Positions 1-35,190 of a DNA stretch of 41,960 nucleotides are shown one piece after another (positions within the stretch are counted from its first letter, which is position 1; every line of letters begins with the position of its first letter). Under the pieces are notes generated by a model. The model was not told the origin of the DNA, made no database searches, and saw only the letters and a list, made by a program, of their open reading frames with translations. The position numbers were made by a program, and so were the translations under genes. The DNA is from Anaeromyces robustus (Eukaryota > Neocallimastigomycota > Neocallimastigomycetes > Neocallimastigales > Neocallimastigaceae), in contig MCFG01000497.1 in NCBI GenBank assembly GCA_002104895.1, forward strand, positions 1-41,960, given 5' to 3'.

Positions 1-469
1 GGAAAGGTAACTTTTTTAAGTCAATTTCATAATTGTTTATTATGGAGGACATTGGTTAACCTTATATAGGACCCATATTTACAGGGAGCGAGTTTAGAGC
101 TGGATTCGAGGTTCAAGGAAGGAGGAGCTTGTATCCAGACAAGATCGTCAATCTTATACGTAGGAGCGGTCATTCTCTTCTTATCGGATGCGCGCTTGTA
201 TAATTCTTGAGAACGGAGAAGGACATCCTGTATATGATTGAATCCTTCGGCAACCTTTTGAATGGTTTTGTGATTTATATTAGTTGTTGGAAGTAGAGTG
301 AATTCGTCCATATACGGGTGGAATCCATAATTTACAAAGAAGGGAGTTTCGTTGGTAGAAGGGTGAATTGAGTTGTTGTAGGCAAACTCAGCTAGAGGTA
401 GGAAGTCAGCCCAGTCATTGTGATAAAAGGATCTTGAGAAACAGCGGAGGTATTGTTCGATGTAGGAGT
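1..469 (-). pseudogene. Ty3/gypsy integrase C-terminal part (family 1), detached and frameshifted
   Basis: This is the end of the integrase of the element at 1106-5115, cut off from it by the insertion at 470-1105. Reading down the minus strand from 469 it resumes with a typical post-catalytic integrase segment (Tyr-Ile-Glu-Gln-Tyr-Leu, then AEFAYNNSIHPST, FFVNYGFHP), followed by the basic KRMTAPTYKIDDLVWI stretch that precedes the GPF/Y module. The frame ends at a stop at 27-29, but a one-base shift there restores YEIDLKKLPF up to the window edge, so the GPF/Y-like region is frameshifted and continues outside the window. Joined to the upstream pol it would complete the IN domain; as it stands it is not translated with it. 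The family assignment is secure, but functionality is unlikely. Confidence 0.8.
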
Positions 470-1105
470 ATCAAAAGGTTAAACAAACGAAATAGGCTGA
501 AAGTTATTAAATGTGGCTTGTAATAAATTTTGTCTTTTTATTTAAGATTTAGTTTAAGAATATTATTATTTATTCAGGTTAAATAGTAATTAAATTTATA
601 AATTGTTTCTAACTATCGATATAAAAAATTAATTAATAAAGATTATGGTTAAATCTTCAATTTAGATTATTCAGACGATAATCTCTTTTATGAAGAAAAA
701 ATATAAAAGTGATTTTTCTTCATATTTATATTTTTTTCTAAATTTAAACTATATAAATAAACTAACTAATATTACTAATAGAAAATGAGTTATTAGTAAT
801 AGAAAATGATTAATTACTAAAAGCATAAAAATATTATTAATACATTAATAATTATTATTTTTAAAGAAATAAAATAATTTCTAAGATATTCTAATTATTA
901 ATAATAAAATTGATAAAATATTTAAATTATTCTTAAACTATTTTTGAGGCTTGAAATAAATTTTAATTATTAATTATTATTAAATAAAAATTAATTTTAT
1001 TATATTTATTAATATATTATTGTTTAAGGCTTGAAATAAATTTTAATTATTAATTATTATTAATAAAAATTAATTTGATTATATTTATTAATATATTATT
1101 GACAA
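470..1105 (-). mobile_element. solo-LTR-like insertion inside integrase (LTR-C related)
   Basis: This 636-bp AT-rich insert breaks the family 1 integrase reading frame and is flanked on both sides by the 5-bp direct repeat ggagt (465-469 and 1106-1110), as expected for an integrase-made target duplication. Removing the insert and one repeat joins the integrase codons in frame. The minus strand carries a TATA-like aaaatataaatat at about 719-735, in a context that resembles the LTR-C copies near 20350 and 37210. The right edge reads ttattgacaa, close to the LTR-C edge ttatttatca. The left edge does not show the usual TG/CA terminus, so the exact family and ends are uncertain. Confidence 0.6.
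947..1101. repeat. 80-bp tandem duplication inside the solo LTR
   Basis: Two nearly identical copies of an approximately 80-bp AT-rich unit starting aggcttgaaataaatttt begin at 947 and 1027. They differ by one A and one T/G change. The unit lies at the minus-strand start of the 470-1105 insertion. Confidence 0.85.
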
Positions 1106-3919
1106 GGAGTTACATTGTTCAACTTGTCCAACGGTTTCGTGGTGGTCGGTAGTTGCTATTTTTGATTGAACACCTAAAATAAGAAGGAACTCTTGCCATA
1201 AATCACTAGTAAATTGAGTTCCTCTATCAGTTATTATATCGTAAGGAAGCCCATGCAGTCTATAAATTGAATTAATAAAAGCTTTAGCTGTTTGTGCTGC
1301 ATTGGGTATATCCTTAAATGGAACAAGGTGTATCATTTTAGAAAATCTATCAACAACTACCATTATTACAGTGTAATTTTTGGAAGGAGGAAGCCCACAA
1401 AGAAAATCGATTTCGATTGATTTCCAAGGTCTTTCAGGAACTTCTAAGGGTTGAAGTAATCCAAATTTTCGGTGTCTCGACTTTTTATTTCTCATGCATG
1501 TTTCGCATGATTTAACAAAGTCTTTGACATCGTCTTCCATTTTAGGCCACCAAAAGTTCCTAGAGATAAGTTCCAAGGTTCTTTTGACACCTAAATGACC
1601 GGCGGCGGGAGTCTCATGATATCTCATGAGTATTTCTAATCGAAGTTCCTTAGGAATATATATTAAATTGTTATAAAATATAAGATTGTCATCGATTTTA
1701 AATTTGTTCATTTTTCTGAACGGTTTATAAAAATAACCTTGATTTGCATTATTGGGAGCGAAGTAAAGACGAAGGTCTTCGGCTACAGGATCATTTTTAA
1801 GATGCTTTTTAATATTCGAGAGAAAATCATTTGTTATGCTAATCAAACAGGGAGTAGAGCTAATGTTCTTTTTATCCAAAATAAACTCTGGTTCTTCTTC
1901 TCTATCATCTTTTACGTAGTCGGGTCTTCTTGATAAAGAATCTGGCTTACCATTTTTATTACCTTGGCGATAAATAAGTTCGAAATCGTACTCTTGGAAA
2001 AATAGATGCCAACGATGTTGTCGTTGGTTGCCAATTTTACCACCAAGAGTGTATATTAGGTTCTTGTGATCGGTGAATACTTTCACCTTAAACTTAGCAC
2101 CTAATAAGAGATGACGCCAGGTAGAGAATGAATCTTTAATAGCCAGAAGTTCTTTGTCGGTGATCGGATAATTAAGTTCAGCGTTGTTAAGACTTCTCGA
2201 ATGATATGCAACAGAATGAAGTTTATTATCATCATCGTATTGCGAAAGAACTGCGCTAATAGCAAAGTTGCTGGCGTCGCATTCGACAATAAATTGTTTA
2301 GTATTGTCGGGATGGAGAAGGACGGGAGAAGTCGTAAAACGTTTCTTTAAGATTGAGAATGCAGAGTCGCATTCTGGAGACCAGATAAATTTCTTCCCCT
2401 TTTTTGTTAAAGAGTGTAAAGGTTTAGCGATTGAGGAGAAGTCCTTTACAAATCTTCTATAGAAATTGCAAAGACCAACGAATCTTTGCACATCCTTTAC
2501 ACATTTAGGGACAGGCCATTCTTCAATGGTCTTAATCTTCTTCGGGTCGGTAGAAATACCAGATCCTGAGATTACGTGACCTAAGAATTCGACTTTGTCT
2601 TTATCGAATTCGCATATTGAAAGTTTTGCAAATAAGTTCTTTTCAATTAATTTCTTAAGAACATCGCGAACGGTTTTATGATGTTCTTCTAGACTATCAG
2701 AGTAGATAAGGATATCATCTAAATATAAGATGACAGATTTTTCTAAAAAAGGTCTAAGAACGGAGTTAATAAACGATTGGAAGACAGCTGGGGCATTTTT
2801 TAATCCAAATGGCATTACTAAATATTCGTAATGACCATATTTAGTACGGAAGGCAGTTTTATATTCGTCACCTTCCTTAATTCTAATTAAATTATAAGCG
2901 GAGCGTAAATCTAATTTAGTAAAGTATTTTGTTCCCTTCACGCGTTCGATTATATCCCTGATAAGCGGAATTGGATAAGAGTTTCTAACTGTAACCGCAT
3001 TTAATTTTTTATAATCGACGCAAAGTCTAAGAGAACCATCACGTTTCTTCTGGAATAAGACAGGATAACCTGCAGGAGAGTTGGATTCTCTGATAAAGCC
3101 CTTTTCTGACATGTCTTCGATATAATCCTTGAGGGTTTCTTCTTCTTCTAAAGATAGTTGGTAGATAGGATCATAATGAAGGGTAGCACCATCTTTTAGT
3201 ATAATTTCACAATCGGTAAGGCGGTGTGGAGGGAGTTTGTCTGCTTCTTTTTTGCTAAAGAAAACTGCGAGATCTCTATATGGTTCTGGGATATCTTCAA
3301 TATTTGGTTCCTCAGATCCAGAGACATCTTTTTGGGAAAGGAAAGAATAAATTAAAAAATTATAATTGTAATGATTTGACTTATTATTATTATTATTGGA
3401 AAAAGTTTTTATTAAATCATTTTTAAAATGATTTAAACCAAGAGTAGAATAAACATATTTATTGAGATAATTATAGTGGATTTTATATTTCTCCATGAAT
3501 TGATTACCTAAAAGTAACTCAACAGGGAGATGGTCTGAGACCAAAAATTTTTGTTTAAAACGAATAAATCTGAATTTCTTGTTGATAAATAATTTTATTT
3601 GAAATTTTAGAGATACAAAGCTATTTATTGAATCTGTATCTCCACTGATTCCTTTTATTAAGATTTTGTTTTGACATTTGTTAATATTTAAATTAAGTTT
3701 TTTAACAAGATTTGATGAAATAAAATTACAAAGTGATCTAGTATCTAGAATGGATCTAACTTGGTATTTAATAATTTTGTTATTCTCATTTAAAATAGGA
3801 ATGTGTGATTTAAATGAGAAGAATGATTCAGGGAGGCTATTGTTTAGGGTAGTTAAGTTATGTTGAACTTCCTTTGAGAAGTTCAAAGTAAAGGACTTCT
3901 TTTGAAGTTCATCAACTAG
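1106..3919 (-). CDS. pol: Ty3/gypsy Pol polyprotein (protease-RT-RNase H-integrase), family 1, 3' end disrupted
   Basis: Pol of a Ty3/gypsy retrotransposon, which makes the enzymes that copy the element RNA into DNA and insert it. Domain order on the minus strand: aspartic protease near 3740 (LDTRSLCNF), reverse transcriptase with LYLDDILIY near 2720, RNase H (VECDASNFAISAVLSQ near 2270), an HHCC zinc finger (HETPAAGHLGV, then CETC near 1500-1620), and an integrase core with D, D (TDRGTQF) and E (GQVEQ) near 1110-1370. The frame is open from the gag slippage site, so Pol is probably made by -1 frameshifting and has no own ATG. Oddities: the protease motif is DTR instead of DTG, and the frame runs into the insertion at 1105 and stops at 1088, cutting off the IN tail. 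About 930 codons stay open, so the copy is young but probably dead. Confidence 0.92.
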
Positions 3920-5115
3920 TTTTTTGAACTGATCTTTTGAACATCAGTAATGCGGTTGTCGTTACTGTTGTTTTTAGACTTATTATAAAAATTGTAGTTT
4001 TTATTAAAATTATTACTTTTATTCTTCTTATCAGTATTCTGCGGACGGGAATTTGAATTTTTCTTCTTGTTAGTTCTAGTTCCAGAGAACTGACTAATCT
4101 TTACATTCATTTCTTGAGAAGACTCTAACAAAATACACTTTGTTATAATTTCTTCGAGCTTCTCAGGAAACTTTTCCATTTTATTTATTTCATCCTTATA
4201 TTTAGGATGAAGACCTTTATAGAAGAACAATGCTAAAGGTTCTTCAGGCCAAGCTAAGTCAGCTGTTAACTTACGGAATTCATCAATGTACTCATTGATT
4301 TTTCCGTAATTATGCTTTATATTGGCTAATTTAATTTTCTTTAATTTCCTGTTAACGACATCAGGAAAGGCTCTTTTTAATTCTTCTAAAAGAATCCATA
4401 AAGAGGATGGAACAGTACCAATAGGATATTTTGTTTGGTACCAACTTCTTGCAGCTCCACGCAACCTAGACTGAACGAAGTTGATTTTTGCTTCTTCGGG
4501 CCATAACTTACAAGGATAAGTTTTAAATGTATCTCCGCAAAGTTGACAGAATAGATCAATTTCGGAGATATCACCATAAAAAAGACCAGGTTCTGGTACC
4601 TGAGCAATAGTATAGGGAAAAGCTGTTCTCATGATAACGTCGTTGTCTACATCAAACCTGGTAGTAGTAGAAGCATTATCATCGAAAGTAGTTTGAGGAG
4701 CAGAAGTGGTAGGTACAGGAGTTGGTTGTTCGCTAGTGGAAGCCGTAACACCAGGATAAAGTCTCTCTCTTTGTGTAAGCTCGCGCTTAAAGTAGAGAGT
4801 AGCCTTTTTCAGAGATTCTAAGGAGTTCATTATCTCATTGTTGGCACGCTCGTAGGATTGAAATTGTTTCATTACCTCTTGATGGTAACATTGCAAATCA
4901 TCCTTTGAGACAAAGCCTTGATTTACTCCAGATACTATATTTGAGCAAGCTTTGGAAGTCTCATTACTTAATTGTTCTAGCCCTTCAGCTAAGGAATTGC
5001 AGGCTTGCGAGGCTTCCATTCTTAATTGTTGAACTGAATCTTCTTGATTCATCTCCATTTCTTCGTCCGATTTAGCAGAATAACCAGTGTTTTTTCTTAA
5101 AGAAAACTTTGTCAT
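3916..5115 (-). CDS. gag: Ty3/gypsy Gag (family 1)
   Basis: Structural protein forming the virus-like particle of the element. The 399-residue frame starts at an ATG (MTKFSLRKN). An N-terminal helical, Gln/Glu-rich part (about residues 20-115) and a Pro/Thr linker (about 120-145) are followed by a retrotransposon Gag capsid domain (about 160-340) with FYGDISEIDLFCQ, SRLRGAARSWYQTKYP and the conserved segment YIDEFRKLTADLAWPEE. The C-terminus is a Lys/Asn-rich basic tail, presumably RNA binding; no CCHC zinc knuckle is visible. It ends directly after the slippery heptamer that links it to Pol. A second copy, nearly identical over the overlap, lies at 41379-41960. Confidence 0.9.
   Translation of the reverse strand: MTKFSLRKNTGYSAKSDEEMEMNQEDSVQQLRMEASQACNSLAEGLEQLSNETSKACSNIVSGVNQGFVSKDDLQCYHQEVMKQFQSYERANNEIMNSLESLKKATLYFKRELTQRERLYPGVTASTSEQPTPVPTTSAPQTTFDDNASTTTRFDVDNDVIMRTAFPYTIAQVPEPGLFYGDISEIDLFCQLCGDTFKTYPCKLWPEEAKINFVQSRLRGAARSWYQTKYPIGTVPSSLWILLEELKRAFPDVVNRKLKKIKLANIKHNYGKINEYIDEFRKLTADLAWPEEPLALFFYKGLHPKYKDEINKMEKFPEKLEEIITKCILLESSQEMNVKISQFSGTRTNKKKNSNSRPQNTDKKNKSNNFNKNYNFYNKSKNNSNDNRITDVQKISSKN
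3919..3925 (-). promoter_or_regulatory. -1 ribosomal frameshift slippery heptamer at the gag-pol junction
   Basis: On the minus strand the heptamer A AAA AAC sits in the gag frame (codons TCA AAA AAC) immediately before the gag TAG stop at 3916-3918. Pol is open in the -1 frame across exactly this point. A AAA AAC is a canonical X XXY YYZ slippery site of known retroviral frameshift signals. The same arrangement occurs in the second copy at 41382-41388. A downstream pseudoknot was not modelled. Confidence 0.75.
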
Positions 5116-5599
5116 TCCAAGGAAGTTACAAAACAGCAGGTAAGATTATTGTAAAGTTTTAATTTGGTTTAAAGATTAACTTGGTCAGAATACTGAATAA
5201 TCTAATACGTAGGGTGTACAACTAATATTGATTTTATTATAAGTTTTAATATAAATATTAATTCTTTATTTAGTTTTATTTAATTATTTTATTATTATAT
5301 TTTATTAGATTTTTATTAGGTTAATAATCTTACAAAGAATGTAAGAATACATATTTCATCAATCTTTTATACATTTTCATTGAACAATACAATAATATAA
5401 GTAAATTAATATTTATATTAATTATAATAATATATATAAAAATAATATAAGATAAAAATATAATTTGTTAATAAAATAAAAGTATAATTTATATTCAACT
5501 GTATTATTAATTAAAATTAATAATAATTAAATTGTTTAAGGATTTGGGGCGCATAAACATGCTTAATAATAATTATTTAATAGATATAATGTAGCTTAT
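5116..5599. other. gag leader and AT-rich spacer, no gene seen
   Basis: This stretch lies upstream of the family 1 gag on the minus strand and should hold its leader and perhaps its 5' LTR. No convincing TG...CA pair, primer binding site or repeat partner elsewhere in the window was found. Near 5529-5617 there is an inverted repeat, ttaaggatttg facing caaatcctta, that encloses a ggggcgcat motif also present in the MULE-type termini further right. Confidence 0.4.
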
Positions 5600-5865
5600 A
5601 TCTATAATCCATTCAAATCCTTAACATTAGTAAATATTTTACCTCCTTTTACTCTAACAAATCACTGATTAAAGAAAGAGAGAGAGTAAGAATTGCGAAT
5701 GATCTTTTCATTAAATTTTCTATAATCAACACATAAGTGTAAAAAAGCATTCTTCTATTCTACAAAAAGGATAGATGGTGAAGTAGATTTTCTAATAAAA
5801 TCTTTTACAAAATTATCTTTTAAATATAACCTTTTTAATTCTTCTCTTTCAACTTCATTTAAAGT
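5600..5865 (-). pseudogene. reverse-transcriptase relic (Ty3/gypsy)
   Basis: The minus strand encodes a decayed RT N-terminal part: NEVEREELKRLYLKDNF, DFIRKSTSPS, then HLCVDYRKFNEKIIRNSY and VKGGKIFT. This matches the order in the intact family A pol (23395-23640: EIEREELKRYLKEN, FIRKSTSPAG, RLCVDYRKLNEMTIRNSY). At least two in-frame stops and missing residues make it non-coding. It ends abruptly on both sides and is adjacent to an LTR-B copy. Confidence 0.75.
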
Positions 5866-5905
5866 TGAAAAGAAGAATTAAAAAAAGATATAATATAATG
5901 GTCAA

Positions 5906-6609
5906 TGTAACGAATCTTAGAAATTAGTAAAATAATAACTAACCATGATCTAGTAATTAGTCACTATGATCATTAGACCGAATACTCTGGATTCAATTCA
6001 CATTTATTCCAAATTTTATAAAAATTTTATTTTAAAATTATTTATAAACTTCTGTATTTCGTTCTGTATTTTGTTCTGTATCTTTTTCTGTATTTTGTTT
6101 CTGTATTTCTTTATAGAAATACATAGAATAAAATAAGAAACTTTAAGAAAAAATTATATTTCTTTACTTTTCCATGAGATTCATTTTATATCAAAAAATC
6201 TTTTTATATTCTAATATTTTTTTTATTTTTTATAAACTTTTATTTTTAAAATTATTTTCTGATAAGAGTATAAATAGGTGTAAAACTTTTGTTTAAAATA
6301 TTTTCTCTTCGTGCTTTTATTTAATGTTTACATTTTATAATAGTAATAATTAATCAATAAGTAGTTTGAAATACAATAATTAATTAGTATTTATTTTTAT
6401 AATTAAACTATTTTTTTTAATAAAATAATTTTTAATGAATTAAATAAAATTAAAACCCAAATTACTAGTATGTTTTAGCACTGACCTTCCAGATAGTAAA
6501 TGGAAAGGTATTCTAATATTATAAGTTTAATTTTATTTTTTTTTTTATTTTAAATATTTTTTCGCGTCAGTTTCGGTACTTGTAATATTGGAACATCGTT
6601 CCAGTTACA
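5906..6609 (+). mobile_element. solo LTR, LTR-B copy a (divergent)
   Basis: This 704-bp unit starts tgtaacgaatc and ends cgttccagttaca, matching the LTR-B copies at 12104, 18992 and 22285. It contains a decayed tRNA-like module (5944-6000), a tataaatagg-type motif followed by gtgtaaaac near 6270-6290, and the hairpin-forming accttcc...ggaaaggt near 6486-6511. The 5-bp flanks (gtcaa and ctagg) do not match, so it has been rearranged or the duplication has decayed. Confidence 0.75.
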
Positions 6610-17411: not shown

Positions 17412-18665
17412 TAGTGTAATTATTTGTAAAAATAAATAAATTATTTATACAATTATTTTGATTGACCCAATAGGTCTACACAGAAAGTAAATCAGAAAAG
17501 AAAATTGGTTTTATAAGAACTTGTTTTATTAGATTTATTAAAATTTAAAAATTTACTCGTTTATTAATTAATTTTGTAATATTCTGAATTACTTATAATT
17601 AATTAATAAAATCGCGAAGAATTAATCATTTAAAAATTTTACACCTATTTATACTTTTTACGGAAAAATAGTTTTCTTCGTAAAAAGTTATTTAAAATTT
17701 CTAGAAACTTTTGATTAAAATTTTATAGAAAAATTTAGAAAAATTTAATATAAAAGTTGTCTTAAAATTTTTGATTGTATTCTATTAATTTCTACGTAAA
17801 ATACAGAAATAAAAATACAGAAATAAAATACAGAAATTTATAATAAAAATTTAAAAAATAAAATTTTTATAAAGTTTGTAACAAGTGTGAGTCGAATCCA
17901 GAGTGTTTGCCCAGATGGTCATAGTGACTAACCACTAGACCATGGTGTAAAGATATTATGCGCCACATTATAATATCTTTAATTTTAAATTCAGCCACTT
18001 TTCAAGTAACTGAATTACAAAAAAATATTTCTGTAAAATTATTGTGAAACAATAATTTAAATCAATTAAATAAAGTTCAAAACAAAATAAATTATTAATT
18101 TATTTTGTGAAATATTAATTTTTTCACTTTTAATTTATAAAATTTTTCATTGTTTTTAAATTTAAAATATATAATAAATATATTATTAATATTAGAATAA
18201 TAAATAAATAATAAATGAACTCAATTGAAATTATTTAGTCTTAGTTTTAATAGTTAATTTAAAATTTCCATTTTTAGAAATAATAAATAAATTTATTAAA
18301 TAATAAAGTTTAGTTAGTTAGATAGTCCGTAAATAAATAGAAATTAAATATAAATAAATTAGTATAATATATAATAAATATAATTATAAAAAAATATAAA
18401 AATACTTCAAAATTTCTTAAATTTTGAAAGGTGTAATTGTTATTATTTTATATTTTTTTTTATTCTTAAAAAATTAATAAAACATATATTTTAAATTAAA
18501 AATACGTTAATAAAAAATATGTTTTGTTAAAATATATGTTTTATTAATTTTTTAACGTATTTTTAATTTTTTTTGTGTTAGTGTTTTCCAAATTGTTGTT
18601 GTAATCTATTTTTCAACAATCCTTTACACATGGTTACTATTTTATTAATTGTGAGATTCGTTACA
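17412..18665 (-). mobile_element. LTR-B copy d (short subfamily), split by LTR-A
   Basis: The right edge gagattcgttaca ends at 18665, and the tRNA-like module (17889-17942) and minus-strand TATA-like box (near 17648) are in place. The left part resembles the shorter LTR-B copy at 21437-21963 (shared caataggt segment) and lacks the accttcc hairpin block. The exact left end is uncertain. An LTR-A at 17946-18628 interrupts it at the start of the tRNA-like A-box. Confidence 0.65.
17946..18628 (+). mobile_element. solo LTR-A with CATGG target duplication
   Basis: This 683-bp LTR starts tgtaaagatattatgcgcc and ends caatcctttaca, with a 7-bp inverted terminus (tgtaaag/ctttaca). It is flanked by catgg on both sides (17941-17945 and 18629-18633), a perfect 5-bp target duplication. 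The first 35 bases form a perfect 11-bp hairpin (aaagatattat/ataatatcttt) around gcgccacatt. The same LTR recurs at 26260, 28818-31431 and, divergent, at 34421. Confidence 0.92.
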
Positions 18666-26258: not shown

Positions 26259-26259
26259 T

Positions 26260-26895
26260 TGTAAAGATATCATACGCCACATTATAATATCTTTAATTGT
26301 AAATTCAGCCACTCTTCAAGTAACTGAATTACAAAAAATATTTCTGTAAAATTATTGTGAAACAATAATTTAAATCAATTAAATAAAGTTCAAAACAAAA
26401 TAAATTATTAATTTATTTTGTGAAATATTAATTTTTTCACTTTTAATTTATAAAATTTTTCATTGTTTTTAAATTTAAAATATATAATAAATATATTATT
26501 AATATTAGAATAATAAATAAATAATAAATGAACTCAATTGAAATTATTTAGTCTTAGTTTTAATAGTTAATTTAAAATTTTTATTTTTAGAAATAATAAA
26601 TAAATTTATTAAATAATAAAGTTTAGTTAGTTAGATAGTCCGTAAATAAATAGAAATTAAATATAAATAAATTAGTATAATATATAATGAATATAATTAT
26701 GAAAAAATATAAAAATACTTCAAAATTTCTTAAATTTTGAAAGGTGTAATTGTTATTATTTTAAATTTTTTAATTCTCAGAAAATTAATAAAACATATAT
26801 TTTAAAAAACATATTTTTATTAGCATATTTTTTTTAATTTTCGTGTTAGTGTTTTTAAATTGTTGTTATAATCTATTTTTTAACAATCCTTTACA
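26260..26895 (+). mobile_element. LTR-A, 3' LTR of the family A pol
   Basis: 636 bp, tgtaaagatatcatacgcc to caatcctttaca, close to 17946-18628. It directly follows the polypurine tract of the plus-strand pol, so it is its 3' LTR. Its outer side abuts the gag-pro of the same family in opposite orientation. Confidence 0.9.
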
Positions 26896-28456
26896 CACTA
26901 ATACTATCATTAATACTATCAATATCACTAATACTATCGCTATTACTATCAAACATAAAACTATCATTAACATCACTTTCATAGTCAACATCACTATCAT
27001 TGATTGTACGAACTAATCTTCTTTTGAAACATTCTTCTCTATCTTCTTCGTTTTCACTAGACCAGTTTGTCTTTGAAGTAGAAGGTTCTTCTTTAAATTC
27101 CTTCTTGACTTTATTTCTCTCGTTTTCATCTTCCGCAGGTTCTTTTCCTTTTCTTGATATAATTTTAATAACTGGTTTCTTTTCTTTCTTGGAGTTTCTT
27201 TTTCTCTTTCCATAATTGCAGAAACGTGCACAGAAACCAGAACTGAAGGCTAATTTCTTATTGTCGTGGTAGTTTGAGGGACAGTGCTTTTCGATCCAAG
27301 GTAAACCTAAAATGATATCGACATCAGGGATTCGAAGGACATAAAATTTAATAAGTTCATAGTGGTTTCTTTTTCTTAAAATGCATTTTTCCATTTCTTT
27401 TTTAACCTTAGAAATTCCATAACCCAGCCCAGACACTCCAAATGGTTCTTTTAATTGATTTACGTTGATGCCGATTAATTTAGCAAATTCTGGGTGAATA
27501 AAATTAAGGTCTGCCCCAGAATCAATTAGTACTCTAGCTTTTTGTTCATTTATTTCGTTAGTATTAATATAGAATTCAATAACATTGCTTTTTTCAGCTT
27601 CCTTTTTTATTTCAGTCACCTTTGACTCATGTAATTTTGAAGTAGCTCCTGGCATTAGTCCCTTTTCTCTGAGAATCTTTTTGATTACCTTCATTTGTTT
27701 GGGTTTTTTTCGATTTGGACAGTTGAATTGTAAATGACCCTTCTGTTTACAGAGGAAACATACTCCATCTCTTCTTTCTTTTTCGAAGGATTTTTTACTT
27801 TCCAGATATGGACTTCTGAAATTTGGGCGGTAGTTAAGACTTCTTTCCCCTCTCTTGATACGGTAGAAATCAACTTCCATAGGGTCGTTACCATGTTGGT
27901 AGTAGTCTTCCAATCTCTCGTTTCTCTTGACTAGGTTTTCAACTGTGACTACTGTTCTATACAATCTTTCGAGAGAGTTTGGATTGGGGTTAACAATTGC
28001 AATTTTCTCTCTCAACTGTTGTTTTAATCCCCTAATAAACATGTGGATTTTGGCGCTCTCATTAAAGTCAGAATTCTGACTTATTCTTTGGAATTCGGTT
28101 ATGTACTCAAATACATGACTATAACGCCTTTGTCTTAAGTTGCAAAGCTTTTCATTTGCAACCACCGCTTCGGTAGTGTAATCACCGAAGTTAGACTTTA
28201 ATTCTCTTATAAATGCATCGTAATTATTCAAGAGTGGACTATTGTTCTTTCGTAAAATTGATGCCCACTCTAAAGATCGTCCAAGCATATACGACATTAA
28301 AAACCTTACTTTTGTGTCGTCATTCAAAAATCTTTGTGGATTGGATTCCATGGCTAGCTCAGCGCGGGTTAGGAATCTATCCAGTTCTTCTCGTTTTCCG
28401 GTGAATAAGGGTGGTTCATTTATCATTTTTATGTGTTGATTGTTGTTATCGCTCAT
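26891..28456 (-). CDS. gag: Ty3/gypsy Gag-protease, family A, 3'-truncated by LTR-A
   Basis: Start chosen at the ATG at 28456 (MSDNNNQHIKMINEPPLF); the frame is open further upstream but only from a GTG. Gag capsid domain about residues 15-180 (LFTGKREELDRFLTRAELAM, RFLMSYMLGRSLEWAS, YITEFQRISQNSDFNESAKI). CX2CX4HX4C zinc knuckle CFLCKQKGHLQFNC near 27735-27780. Aspartic protease VLIDSGADLNFIHPEF near 27480-27535, with a downstream IILGLPWIEKH. The tail becomes Lys/Glu- then Asp/Ser-rich (NDSFMFDSNSDS). The last native codon lies at about 26897, and the stop comes from the LTR. The same Asp/Ser segment opens the pol at 22992, so the two frames were once one Gag-Pro-Pol polyprotein. Confidence 0.92.
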   Translation of the reverse strand: MSDNNNQHIKMINEPPLFTGKREELDRFLTRAELAMESNPQRFLNDDTKVRFLMSYMLGRSLEWASILRKNNSPLLNNYDAFIRELKSNFGDYTTEAVVANEKLCNLRQRRYSHVFEYITEFQRISQNSDFNESAKIHMFIRGLKQQLREKIAIVNPNPNSLERLYRTVVTVENLVKRNERLEDYYQHGNDPMEVDFYRIKRGERSLNYRPNFRSPYLESKKSFEKERRDGVCFLCKQKGHLQFNCPNRKKPKQMKVIKKILREKGLMPGATSKLHESKVTEIKKEAEKSNVIEFYINTNEINEQKARVLIDSGADLNFIHPEFAKLIGINVNQLKEPFGVSGLGYGISKVKKEMEKCILRKRNHYELIKFYVLRIPDVDIILGLPWIEKHCPSNYHDNKKLAFSSGFCARFCNYGKRKRNSKKEKKPVIKIISRKGKEPAEDENERNKVKKEFKEEPSTSKTNWSSENEEDREECFKRRLVRTINDSDVDYESDVNDSFMFDSNSDSISDIDSINDSISV

Positions 28457-28612
28457 CGTTTGGTTTTCGTTTAAAGATAGGTTCTGAAGAGCGTTATTTA
28501 TTATCAATAATTTTGACACTTTGGAACTTTTTATTTATTTAAGTATTCACAAAATATTCTCCTATTTAAGATTTTTTTTTTTTTTTTTTTTTTATATATA
28601 TTTTAGTGAAAG

Positions 28613-28772: not shown

Positions 28773-29303
28773 GGTAGTTGTTGTAACGTATTTACTTGAG
28801 AAAAAGGTAATTGTTATTGTAAAGAATTTATTTAAATAGATTACAACAACAATAAAAAATACGCTAACACAGGAATTAGAAAAATCACTTTAATAAAAAT
28901 TTGTTTTATTAAAATATATGTTTTATTAATTATCTTAAAAAATATAAGTTAATAACAATTATACCTTTCAAAATTTAAGAAGTTTTGAAGTATTTTTATA
29001 TTTTTTCATAATTATATTTATTATATATTATACTAATTTATTTATATTTAATTTCTATTTATTTATGAACTATCTAACTAACTAAACTTTATTATTTAAT
29101 AAATTTTTTTATTATTTCTAAAAATAGAAATTTTAAATTAACTATTAAAACTAAGACTAAATAATTTCAATTGAGTTCATTTATTATTTATTTATTATTC
29201 TAATATTAATAATATATTTATTATATATTTTAAATTTAAAAACAATGAAAAATTTTATAAATTAAAAGTGAAAAAATTAATATTTCACAAAATAAATTAA
29301 TAT

Positions 29304-29726
29304 TTACCTAGTGTTGAAGAGATATTTAATGAAGAAAGAAACTATGAAACAAGAAATAAAGAAAAAGAAAAAGAAAAAGATCCTCCTGACATGGAATATG
29401 TACAAGGAGAAAACTTAGCAAAGGAATATCTACCAAAATACGAAGAAGGAGAAATTGAAAAAATAAAAAATTGGTTAAAAACAAATGAAGAAATGCAAAC
29501 AACTATTATTAACGGATATCAAGAAGCCAAATGGTTAGCTGAACATTATCAAATGTTAGCTAACTATTGGGCTAATAACTTTGCAAAAATAAAAACAGAA
29601 GAAGAAGAAAAAAGAAAAGAATTAAAAGATATGAAAAGAAAATTAACTATTAAATTAAATAATAAAAATAATAAAAGAAAATGTAATGACACTGAATATG
29701 TAAAAAATAAAAAAAATAAAAAATAA
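29304..29726 (+). CDS. 3' end of an unidentified (possibly viral Rep) gene
   Basis: The frame is already open at the insert border (LPSVEEIFNEERNYETRN), so the ATG at 29391 is probably internal and the true start is missing. The protein has an acidic/lysine-rich stretch, then a helical middle (YLPKYEEGEIEKIKNWLKTN, INGYQEAKWLAEHYQMLANY) and a strongly basic, Asn/Lys-rich tail. No Rep endonuclease or helicase motif is in the surviving part. By position, opposite to and converging on the capsid-like gene, it could be the C-terminus of a Rep or another viral protein; I do not recognise it. Confidence 0.5.
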   Translation, partial: LPSVEEIFNEERNYETRNKEKEKEKDPPDMEYVQGENLAKEYLPKYEEGEIEKIKNWLKTNEEMQTTIINGYQEAKWLAEHYQMLANYWANNFAKIKTEEEEKRKELKDMKRKLTIKLNNKNNKRKCNDTEYVKNKKNKK

Positions 29727-29833
29727 AAAAAAAAAATGTTGAATTAAAAACCCAAACAAAAAAATAGTTTTATTTTTTTACTTCTTTTTTGTGTTTACAC
29801 TTAAACTAATTCTCTAAATTATTTACTATCGTT

Positions 29834-29889
29834 ATTGAACATCTCTCCAGCCTGGTATCCTGAAAAAGGCATTCCGAGCGAGGTTCAAT
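29834..29889. promoter_or_regulatory. hairpin between the two viral-like genes
   Basis: Perfect arms attgaac (29834-29840) and gttcaat (29883-29889), with inner ctc/gag and a small gcct/aggc hairpin. It is the least AT-rich part of the spacer between the convergent frames. It could be a replication origin stem-loop, a terminator, or chance; no known nonanucleotide origin motif is seen in the loop. Confidence 0.4.
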
Positions 29890-29974
29890 ACTTGTAAATA
29901 ACACAGAGTCTCATTAGTTTGATTTTATTTAGTTTCAGGATATAATCTTTATTTATATTTATTTATATTTACAT

Positions 29975-31285
29975 TTATGATTGTTCTTCTACAACCATAT
30001 CTTGTGTTGTTTCTACAACACGTTCTTTTTTATCGGTCATAATCTTAACCTTATCTTTGTCTACGACAGATTGGTTAAGATCTGAAATTGTTTTATAAGA
30101 TATTATAGTTGGTGGTCCATAATAGATGTTTTCTCTTTTTGTTCGTTTTACGATTAATTTACCAGGTAAATTAAATACTCTATTGTTCATATCTAACTTA
30201 CCCTTAGTATCTACTTGTTGTCTATTTGGTGCATCTATTTCTATTTCTGTTTGTGTTGTTAAACCATAAGTATTACTAGAAGCGGCTTTAAATTGTGTAA
30301 GTTCTGTTGTGTTACTAGCTTCTACTGCTATTTGACCATAAGTTCTAAACATACATCCTGTAGTAACTCCTCCTAAAATACCTACATTTGTTAATAGATC
30401 TTTATTATCTATATGTGGGAATCTATAGAAGAATGATGCTCTATCATATATTTGACCTAACTTAACTATTAAATTATGCTTATATGTTCTATTAGGTTCT
30501 ATCATAATCCTAGTTACCTTCTTAACTTTCCAAAAAGTATTAAATAATCTATAATTTGTTGGATTCATACCTAAACTATTCCACTTACTTTGGCTAACCG
30601 ATGTTGCATAATTAGTATTTTGAGTATTAGTACTAGTAGTTTTCTCTACATTATCTATTTGATTACCAGAAGTTTCAACATATTCTCCAGTTTGTGTAGC
30701 GGTACTAAAAGCATTAGCAGATTCACTAAATGTAACATCTTGTTGAATATTTTGAGATGGATAAAGTATTCTATTATATCCTATAGTTATTGGATGAGAA
30801 TTATAGTACATACAAGCTTCGGGATATGGTATATCTGGATATTCTACTACATTACTTTGTGGGTATCCATTGGCTGCTGTTGCTGCTGATGAACCTGTTA
30901 ATACTGGTGGTGCTGATTGTACATTAACATATAATTGATTATAATCCCAAAATGGTTTTGGATCTGTATTTACGTAATCCTTTTTAGCTATAATATCGTA
31001 TATATCTACATACATATTATAATTTGTTGGATTACTAATTTCATATTGATAAACTGCTTTACCAATATATAACGACTTTTGTTCATTTAGATATTGAGCA
31101 TAAGATACATTTACATTAGTTTGGGATCCTGTTGCATTGAATAAATAATCTTTAGCAGCGTTTTCATTTGATGCGGCAGTTGATAGTTGTTGCATATAAT
31201 TCCAGAAATAATCATAAACATCTGATACGGTCATGTGAAGAAATGTAGAATATCTATATTTATTAAATCCTACGTTTTCTACTAC
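29975..31285 (-). CDS. CRESS-DNA-virus-like capsid protein, N-terminally truncated
   Basis: A 436-codon frame without stops. It is open from the LTR junction (VVENVGFNKYRYSTFLH) into an ATG at 31234 that looks internal, so the start and any basic N-terminus are missing. The composition (Tyr, Asn, Thr, Ser rich, many beta-type segments) and phrases such as YQYEISNPTNYNMYVDIYDI near 31050, then LFNTFWKVKKVTRIMIEPNR and TYKHNLIVKLGQI near 30470-30560, resemble the jelly-roll capsid of CRESS-DNA viruses. In those, an F..(Y/W)KI..vk.i.l.PG-type strand precedes a basic strand. This is recognition by pattern, not by search. The complete frame in an AT-rich, decaying neighbourhood indicates recent entry or selection. 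Confidence 0.6.
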   Translation of the reverse strand, partial: VVENVGFNKYRYSTFLHMTVSDVYDYFWNYMQQLSTAASNENAAKDYLFNATGSQTNVNVSYAQYLNEQKSLYIGKAVYQYEISNPTNYNMYVDIYDIIAKKDYVNTDPKPFWDYNQLYVNVQSAPPVLTGSSAATAANGYPQSNVVEYPDIPYPEACMYYNSHPITIGYNRILYPSQNIQQDVTFSESANAFSTATQTGEYVETSGNQIDNVEKTTSTNTQNTNYATSVSQSKWNSLGMNPTNYRLFNTFWKVKKVTRIMIEPNRTYKHNLIVKLGQIYDRASFFYRFPHIDNKDLLTNVGILGGVTTGCMFRTYGQIAVEASNTTELTQFKAASSNTYGLTTQTEIEIDAPNRQQVDTKGKLDMNNRVFNLPGKLIVKRTKRENIYYGPPTIISYKTISDLNQSVVDKDKVKIMTDKKERVVETTQDMVVEEQS

Positions 31286-31431
31286 ATTTATTTTGTTTTG
31301 AACTTTATTTAATTGATTTAAATTATTGTTTCACAATAATTTTACAGAAATATTTTTTGTAATTCAGTTACTTGAAAAGTGGCTGAATTTACAATTAAAG
31401 ATATTATAATGTGGCGCATAATATCTTTACA

Positions 31432-31710
31432 ACTTGTGATAGGCAACCGAAGGATCTAATTTGTCGATAATATAATCTTCAGGATTTTATTTCTTTTAAT
31501 TTTCTTTATCTTTTCAGAAATAACATAGTCGACAAGGTTGTTAATATCCAAGAGATAGAGCATGTTAGTTTTCCAGCTATTATAATTATCAGTATTTAAG
31601 GTAATAGTATGAGTAAAATAATCAGTATAGTTGAAGGATATATTTTGTCTGTTTTCTGGTTCACTGATTTCACCATCTCTGGTTCTTCTATTATTCAATC
31701 TTACGGACAT
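31432..31710 (-). pseudogene. Ty1/copia Gag N-terminus, frameshifted and cut by LTR-A
   Basis: Starts at ATG 31710. Residues TLNTDNYNSWKTNMLYLLDI match the start of copia Gag (LN..NY..W...M...L). The frame breaks near 31495; with a shift it continues NPEDYIIDKLDPSVAYHK to the LTR edge at 31431. The rest of gag is missing. Confidence 0.75.
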
Positions 31711-34420: not shown

Positions 34421-35190
34421 TGTAAAGATATTTAACGCCACAGCGTAAAATCCTTATATGTAATTTAAGCTACTATACGTAGTGATTAAAATTACATAAA
34501 ATAATTCTGTAAAATTATTGTGAAACAATAATTTAAATCAATTAAATAAAGTTCAAAACAGAATAATTATTAAATTTTAATTTTTAATTTATAAAATTTT
34601 TCATTGTTTTTAAATTTAAAATATATAATAAATATATTATTAATATTAGAATAATAAATAAATAATAAATGAACTCAATTGAAATTATTTAGTCTTAGTT
34701 TTAATAGTTAATTTAAAATTTCTATTTTTAGAAATAATAAATAAATTTATTAAATATTAAAGTTTACTTAGATAGTCCGTAAATAAATAGAAATTAGATA
34801 TAAATAAATTAGTATAATATTGATATAAAATGAACATATAAACTTTAATTAATATAAAAATTATTACACATAAATTTATTCCTGATTACATTAAAAATAA
34901 TATGTAGTAATCATAGGATATGAATTATATGTGGCACATTAGTAGTCATGTGTAAACATGATTTACATATAATTAGACATAATTTTATAATTCTATTAAT
35001 AATTTACTTATTTTATAATATTTACTTTATATTATTTTTTATATTGTTATAATATATTACTGTTTAGTAATTATATATAGTTATAATATACTTTTATTAT
35101 ATTATATTAAAAATACACTTAAATAGTAAAATTAACAATATATTAAAAACATGTTCTTGAATTTATAATTGAAAAGTGTAATTGTTATAG
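34421..35190 (+). mobile_element. divergent LTR-A copy interrupting copia integrase
   Basis: Starts tgtaaagatatttaacgcc at 34421 and follows LTR-A from ctgtaaaattattgtg to aattagtataatat (about 34823). About 330 bp without LTR-A similarity follow, then an LTR-A-like piece (gaatttataattgaaaagtg, then taattgttat) near 35158-35182. The 5' hairpin found in the other copies is decayed. It cuts the copia integrase. The right end is not clear. Confidence 0.65.

Follow-up and report, generated by a model that had tools for sequence, protein, structure and literature searches.

A probable CRESS-type viral fragment in a retrotransposon long terminal repeat of the anaerobic gut fungus Anaeromyces robustus

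How did a piece of DNA that looks viral come to lie inside a retrotransposon long terminal repeat (LTR)? The question is raised by contig C442 of the assembly of Anaeromyces robustus (70.2 Mb, 769 contigs), an anaerobic gut fungus of the phylum Neocallimastigomycota. The contig was analysed whole, as a window of 41,960 nucleotides (nt). Between positions 29303 and 31285, an LTR is interrupted by a fragment that carries, on the minus strand, a long open frame resembling the capsid genes of circular Rep-encoding single-stranded (CRESS) DNA viruses. This insert is very probably a fragment of a CRESS-type single-stranded DNA (ssDNA) virus that was recently end-joined into a break in the LTR, near the centre of a palindrome.

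Borders of the insert and the empty site

The insert differs from its surroundings in composition (27.6% GC versus 13.2% in the LTR flanks), and its borders could be placed by comparing the flanks with intact copies of the LTR. The left flank, ...AAATTAATA, stops at 29302 and the right flank, ATTTATTTTG..., resumes at 31286. When joined, they rebuild, without a surplus or missing base at the junction, the intact site of the copies at 26259-26880 and 17946-18495; away from it, the LTR copies show a few per cent divergence. A third copy (34421-34820) is uninformative, as it is more diverged and its alignment jumps by about 17 bases immediately left of the junction. Genome-wide, a motif pattern for the empty site, which also permitted a form shorter by one base, found the longer form in all 64 of its places. 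The pattern demands exact surrounding bases, so that diverged LTR copies go uncounted, and a reversed control pattern had no matches. The first-pass annotation had delimited the insert to the base and called its junction blunt; the rebuilt site and the 64 motif copies bear this out, and a junction with no duplicated or missing base is the simplest reading. No terminal inverted repeats were seen at the two ends of the insert when these were read by eye.

The insertion point is equivalent to 26405/26406 of an intact copy and lies 2.5 nt off the midpoint of a palindrome (Table 1) that is perfect and, with spacers of up to 6 considered, the longest in the LTR. Palindromes with arms of at least 12 occurred in 14 of 300 simulated LTRs. 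The age of the interrupted LTR was judged from an alignment of six copies or part-copies, which gives a relative age and no absolute date: 6 private substitutions were counted over the 616 bases of the interrupted LTR, and 2-8 in the five other copies or part-copies (373-622 nt). The viral insertion appears to be recent. It is younger than the LTR that it interrupts, so that its open capsid frame can be explained without selection.

A truncated capsid gene and its relatives

The minus-strand frame has 436 sense codons, against 171 for the longest open frame when the insert was simulated 2000 times with an order-2 Markov model, and its GC content at the three codon positions (40, 35 and 13%) fits a coding sequence. 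A phmmer search of 5.8 billion proteins returned six proteins at E <= 1, the window's own included. The closest relatives are P0002 (629 amino acids (aa), 53% identity) and P0003 (424 aa, 55% identity over 46% of the query), from contigs of 3197 and 1326 nt. P0004-P0006, from contigs of 7417, 1691 and 2828 nt, are 26-31% identical over 37-46% of the query and have core motifs in common. A profile search gained one further protein, P0007, which is the NCBI entry (BCR32DRAFT_302449) of a second copy in A. robustus itself, on contig C159. By sequence similarity, the window capsid belongs to a family that has no match among Pfam models and whose members span 414-629 aa. An Arg/Lys-rich N terminus was read in P0002-P0006 and in the C159 copy.

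The window capsid matches residues 171-621 of P0002, and tblastn alignments of P0002 and P0003 begin, at their residues 171 and 175, at window position 31288, which is three bases beyond the border. Because these relatives continue past the border, the gene is truncated there, and the insert holds about its last three quarters. The upstream ~170 N-terminal residues of P0002 and P0003, which include Arg/Lys-rich stretches, have no counterpart in the window, where LTR is found instead; the window copy has no basic N terminus because the gene is cut at the border. The three bases beyond the border in the tblastn alignment match the LTR equally well and may represent microhomology. The first in-frame ATG, at 31234, leaves 419 aa. 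As the gene has lost its start and its basic N terminus, a working capsid is not to be expected from it.

Structural comparison gave matches for one relative. The weak model of P0006 (pLDDT 46) had 130 matches at E <= 0.001 in BFVD and none at that threshold in the PDB (Foldseek). Among the best 50 of the 130, 22 were nameless and 28 named, and 27 of the 28 names were capsid or coat proteins; 14 of these referred to Cressdnaviricota, CRESS, circular DNA virus or circovirus/Circoviridae, 12 to 'uncultured virus' and 1 to Capybara virus. The identification of the minus frame as a CRESS-type capsid gene, also made in the first-pass annotation, is supported by the basic N termini of the relatives, by this capsid-dominated list and by the Reps, origins and other capsids found elsewhere in the genome (below). 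The family profile gave no useful match in the PDB, nor did tblastn of the capsid in a phage collection. Scans of viral contigs with capsid patterns fitted 1, 46 and 2 stretches and a scan by Rep alignment fitted 25, none of them confirmed as relatives; a scan by an intergenic DNA motif fitted 0.

On the opposite strand, the plus frame is open from the border, and its 140 codons lie above the 99th percentile (132) and below the maximum (171) of the 2000 simulations. It has no relatives in the genome (1 place, itself) or in the protein collection and no significant Pfam match, and may represent the 3' end of another viral gene. The earlier statement that both frames run off the borders stands for the capsid gene, whose relatives extend past its border, and for the plus frame holds of the open frame only. 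The intergenic stretch between the two frames could form a long hairpin, with z-scores for folding as DNA of -3.0 on the minus strand, -2.3 on the plus strand and -1.1 for its relative on C388; that relative is 77% identical and lies ~1.5 kb from Rep genes. Rfam gave three sub-threshold matches in the insert, taken as chance, and none in the C388 relative, and a tRNA search of the window found none. Neither insert frame has a significant Pfam match, and no Viral_Rep or RNA_helicase match was found on contig C442. An origin stem-loop was not found in the insert, where the only AAGTATTAC lies within the capsid frame and has no stem by reading.

Table 1. Features at the interrupted LTR, in window coordinates
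Feature	Position	Strand	Description and basis
Palindrome in intact LTR copy	26395..26421	+	13-bp arms, 1-nt spacer
Gag-like frame adjoining the interrupted LTR, same strand	26891..28519	-	Open reading frame list; gag call from reading a CCHC-type motif
Interrupted LTR, left part	28834..29302	-	Same family as the LTR at 26259-26880
Inserted DNA fragment, very probably viral	29303..31285	.	1983 nt; comparison of flanks with intact LTR, genome-wide motif count, composition
Open frame, Lys/Glu-rich, convergent with the capsid gene	29304..29726	+	140 codons
Intergenic stretch, potential long hairpin	29759..29914	.	Relative at C388:14718-14874
5'-truncated capsid gene, CRESS type supported	29975..31285	-	436 codons + stop; phmmer relatives, alignment, tblastn
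Interrupted LTR, right part	31286..31432	-	

Other CRESS-type elements in the genome

The window capsid family occupies two places in the genome. The second, at C159:3234-4577, encodes 447 aa with a basic N terminus, is apparently complete and is 28% identical to the window copy. It faces a 133-aa frame in which helicase-like motifs were read. This frame has no Pfam match and no credible PDB match; it shows a weak alignment (24-26%, E 0.006) to a C179 frame that retains a P-loop-like motif and has no credible PDB match either. Going by its motifs, a geminivirus/genomovirus affinity of the C159 fragment is conceivable. The C159 locus was rejected as a second clean insertion, as different repeats match its two flanks and no empty site can be demonstrated.

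Pfam Viral_Rep, which is a different family from geminivirus Rep, matches at seven places on five contigs (two on C625, one each on C130, C459 and C222, and two on C388). All seven are over the cut-off, and 0 of 14 control genomes have a match. Six aligned Reps of the seven have in common the motifs FTLN, HLQ and YC.K, which we take to be HUH motifs, and GPTG.GKS, presumably Walker A. The Rep on C222 matches solved Rep structures (7lar, E 1.2e-13). Stem-loops with TAGTATTAC, their stems read from the flanks, adjoin Rep at C222, C130 and C388; none was found within the scanned intervals at C625, C459 and C159. A circovirus-like capsid gave nine matches at six loci on five contigs (C222, C114, C233, C130 twice and C146), and two of the nine, at two loci, contain internal stops. 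At two of these loci Pfam Circo_capsid gives a sub-threshold match, so that 'circovirus-like' is a weak label. With several CRESS-type elements in its genome, A. robustus must have acquired DNA from at least two CRESS-type lineages, which suggests infection by several.

PF00910 was rejected as evidence of Rep when taken alone, since it has matches in all 14 control genomes (6 over cut-off); A. robustus has 28 matches, 10 of them over cut-off. Of these ten, the matches on C332 and C720 belong to a proteasome-type ATPase, to judge by a reading of one of the two near-identical loci, and the match on C749 was left out of the inspection. C332 and C720 are 99.8% identical over the 3.2 kb compared, a recent duplication or an uncollapsed allele.

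Several of these loci have features of their own. In L016 (C222:16000-25999), at 2927-5526, a circovirus-like capsid on the minus strand and a Rep on the plus strand flank a TAGTATTAC stem-loop. The locus sits in a repeat whose uninterrupted relative is window 468-1022, and another repeat overlaps the end of the Rep. In L017 (C388:7000-16999), at 3521-6263, tandem Rep frames lie ~1.77 kb apart, share 79% identical DNA over 1.2 kb and have a TAGTATTAC stem-loop upstream. A coiled-coil-like frame adjoining Rep is common to L013 (4922-5836), L014 (5450-6376) and L017 (4739-5154), with 77-88% DNA identity over pieces. On C625 (L013 3857-4657 and 6872-7807), pieces of a Ty3-type gag-pol flank a Rep and its accessory frame. 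One stretch of the gag-pol translations recurs on either side, perhaps as a long insertion duplication, and this flanking repeat was not listed by a DNA self-comparison with a low-complexity filter.

Origin of the insert and known systems

The account that we favour begins with a CRESS-type ssDNA virus, which would have infected an ancestor of the A. robustus strain and a broken replicative form of which would have supplied linear double-stranded viral DNA. The chromosome would have broken close to the midpoint of the longest palindrome in the LTR, a structure that could be cut as a hairpin or cruciform, and end joining would have fused the viral DNA into the break. The capture would have brought in what remains of the capsid gene, together with the intergenic region and perhaps also the tail of the convergent gene. 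Repair-mediated capture, already proposed in the first-pass annotation, fits the clean junction, the lack of terminal inverted repeats and the lack of further copies. The insert would be a dead fossil, presumably without function, and not a provirus, because the start and basic N terminus of the capsid are missing and neither Rep nor origin was found in it; its capsid frame would still be open because the insertion is recent. Origin-to-origin (Rep-mediated) integration was rejected, as the right end falls within the capsid gene.

Three results weigh against this account. The insert starts with TTTA, a repeat of bases 2-5 of the ATTTA with which the right flank opens, so that a 5-bp duplication minus one base is conceivable. 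The model of the window capsid itself (AlphaFold, 7 sequences, pLDDT 36) had no BFVD match at E <= 0.001, and searches of Pfam, PHROGs and PDB sequences with the window capsid gave nothing significant. Structure prediction and profile search of the window product, to which the first-pass annotation had looked for confirmation, thus supplied none.

The first of these results would be explained if an integrase or transposase had inserted the viral piece and the resulting 5-bp duplication of ATTTA had later lost one base. Ty3 target duplications are usually 5 bp, and TTTA, which occupies 1.5% of insert positions on both strands, would repeat the flank at the insert start by chance at ~1.5-1.8% per site. 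However, the shorter site occurs in 0 of 64 motif copies, and this history would therefore require an extra one-base deletion; moreover, the insert ends have neither terminal inverted repeats nor LTR-type ends by reading, and copies are few, with the capsid in one other place, the plus frame only in itself and the intergenic stretch in one further place. We consider such an insertion unlikely. Still less likely is a misassembly in which viral DNA was joined to an LTR contig. The numerous LTR copies (485 candidates, 40 scored) are a common source of misjoins, but at both borders the fit to a single LTR copy is base-exact, host repeats surround other CRESS-type loci, several of which are on contigs of 87-304 kb and two of which have internal stops, and the C159 capsid is an A. 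robustus protein in NCBI. That the minus frame is a non-viral gene, cellular or of a retroelement, is barely credible: the empty Pfam, PHROG and PDB sequence searches would allow it, but none of its relatives is named after a cellular family (the sole named one, P0007, the genome's own second copy, is a hypothetical protein), the named structural matches among the best 50 of P0006 are nearly all viral capsid or coat proteins and the N termini of the relatives are basic. A best match to a retroelement or cellular protein, which the first-pass annotation had named as refuting, did not emerge, although the profile searches of Pfam, PHROGs and PDB gave nothing significant.

Many CRESS viruses from metagenomes have no known host. 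A young, base-exact capsid insertion links an unplaced capsid lineage, whose relatives lie on short contigs, to a gut fungus. Anaerobic gut fungi, degraders of plant fibre in herbivores, thereby become hosts that can be tested for some of the ssDNA viruses of the gut. The insert also provides a little-decayed example of the entry of CRESS-type DNA into a genome. It is possible, although we would not yet call it probable, that an undescribed family of CRESS-DNA viruses with its own capsid family (414-629 aa) infects anaerobic gut fungi and, the integration being young, still circulates, and that palindromes prone to hairpin formation are preferred sites for the capture of its DNA, perhaps through Rep-like hairpin nicking.

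Endogenous CRESS viruses are an already known kind of element. BdDV-1 is reportedly a CRESS virus that carries a capsid gene. PMC11115238 cites it (Clemons et al. 2024) as a DNA virus endogenous to the chytrid Batrachochytrium dendrobatidis; the A. robustus insert is likewise endogenous viral DNA in a zoosporic fungus, but of another phylum, and the two are likened by description, not by sequence. A 2011 survey (Liu et al., PMC3198968) counted 305 matches in eukaryotes, of which 3 were capsids and none of these in fungi. Its geminivirus-like Rep elements come from ascomycete and basidiomycete genomes, and the fungal entries of its Table 1 are all Rep. The A. robustus insert resembles these elements as CRESS-virus-derived DNA in a fungal genome, whereas the A. 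robustus Reps match Viral_Rep, in a search that did not include the geminivirus Rep model. The first-pass annotation held an endogenised capsid to be unusual, which the rarity of capsids in that survey supports; the two window-family and six circovirus-like capsid loci of this genome, and the endogenous DNA virus reported from a fungus, qualify it. Among the open-licence papers listed, judged by title and opening of the abstract, we found no report of endogenous CRESS capsids in Neocallimastigomycota, which does not prove that there is none, and a survey of early-diverging fungi targets RNA viruses (PMC7482067). A review (PMC10224137) has entries for Gigaspora circovirus A and for an ssDNA virus of Pecoramyces, another anaerobic gut fungus. 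These too are ssDNA viruses in early-diverging fungi; an endogenised capsid is not described in those entries, whereas A. robustus has one. Whole CRESS viral genomes are also reported as insertions in Entamoeba and Giardia (Kinsella et al. 2020, PMC7493932), which are unicellular gut eukaryotes. Like those elements, the insert is very probably CRESS DNA integrated in a gut eukaryote; unlike them, it lies in A. robustus and holds a cut-off part of a capsid gene whose family has no match in Pfam.
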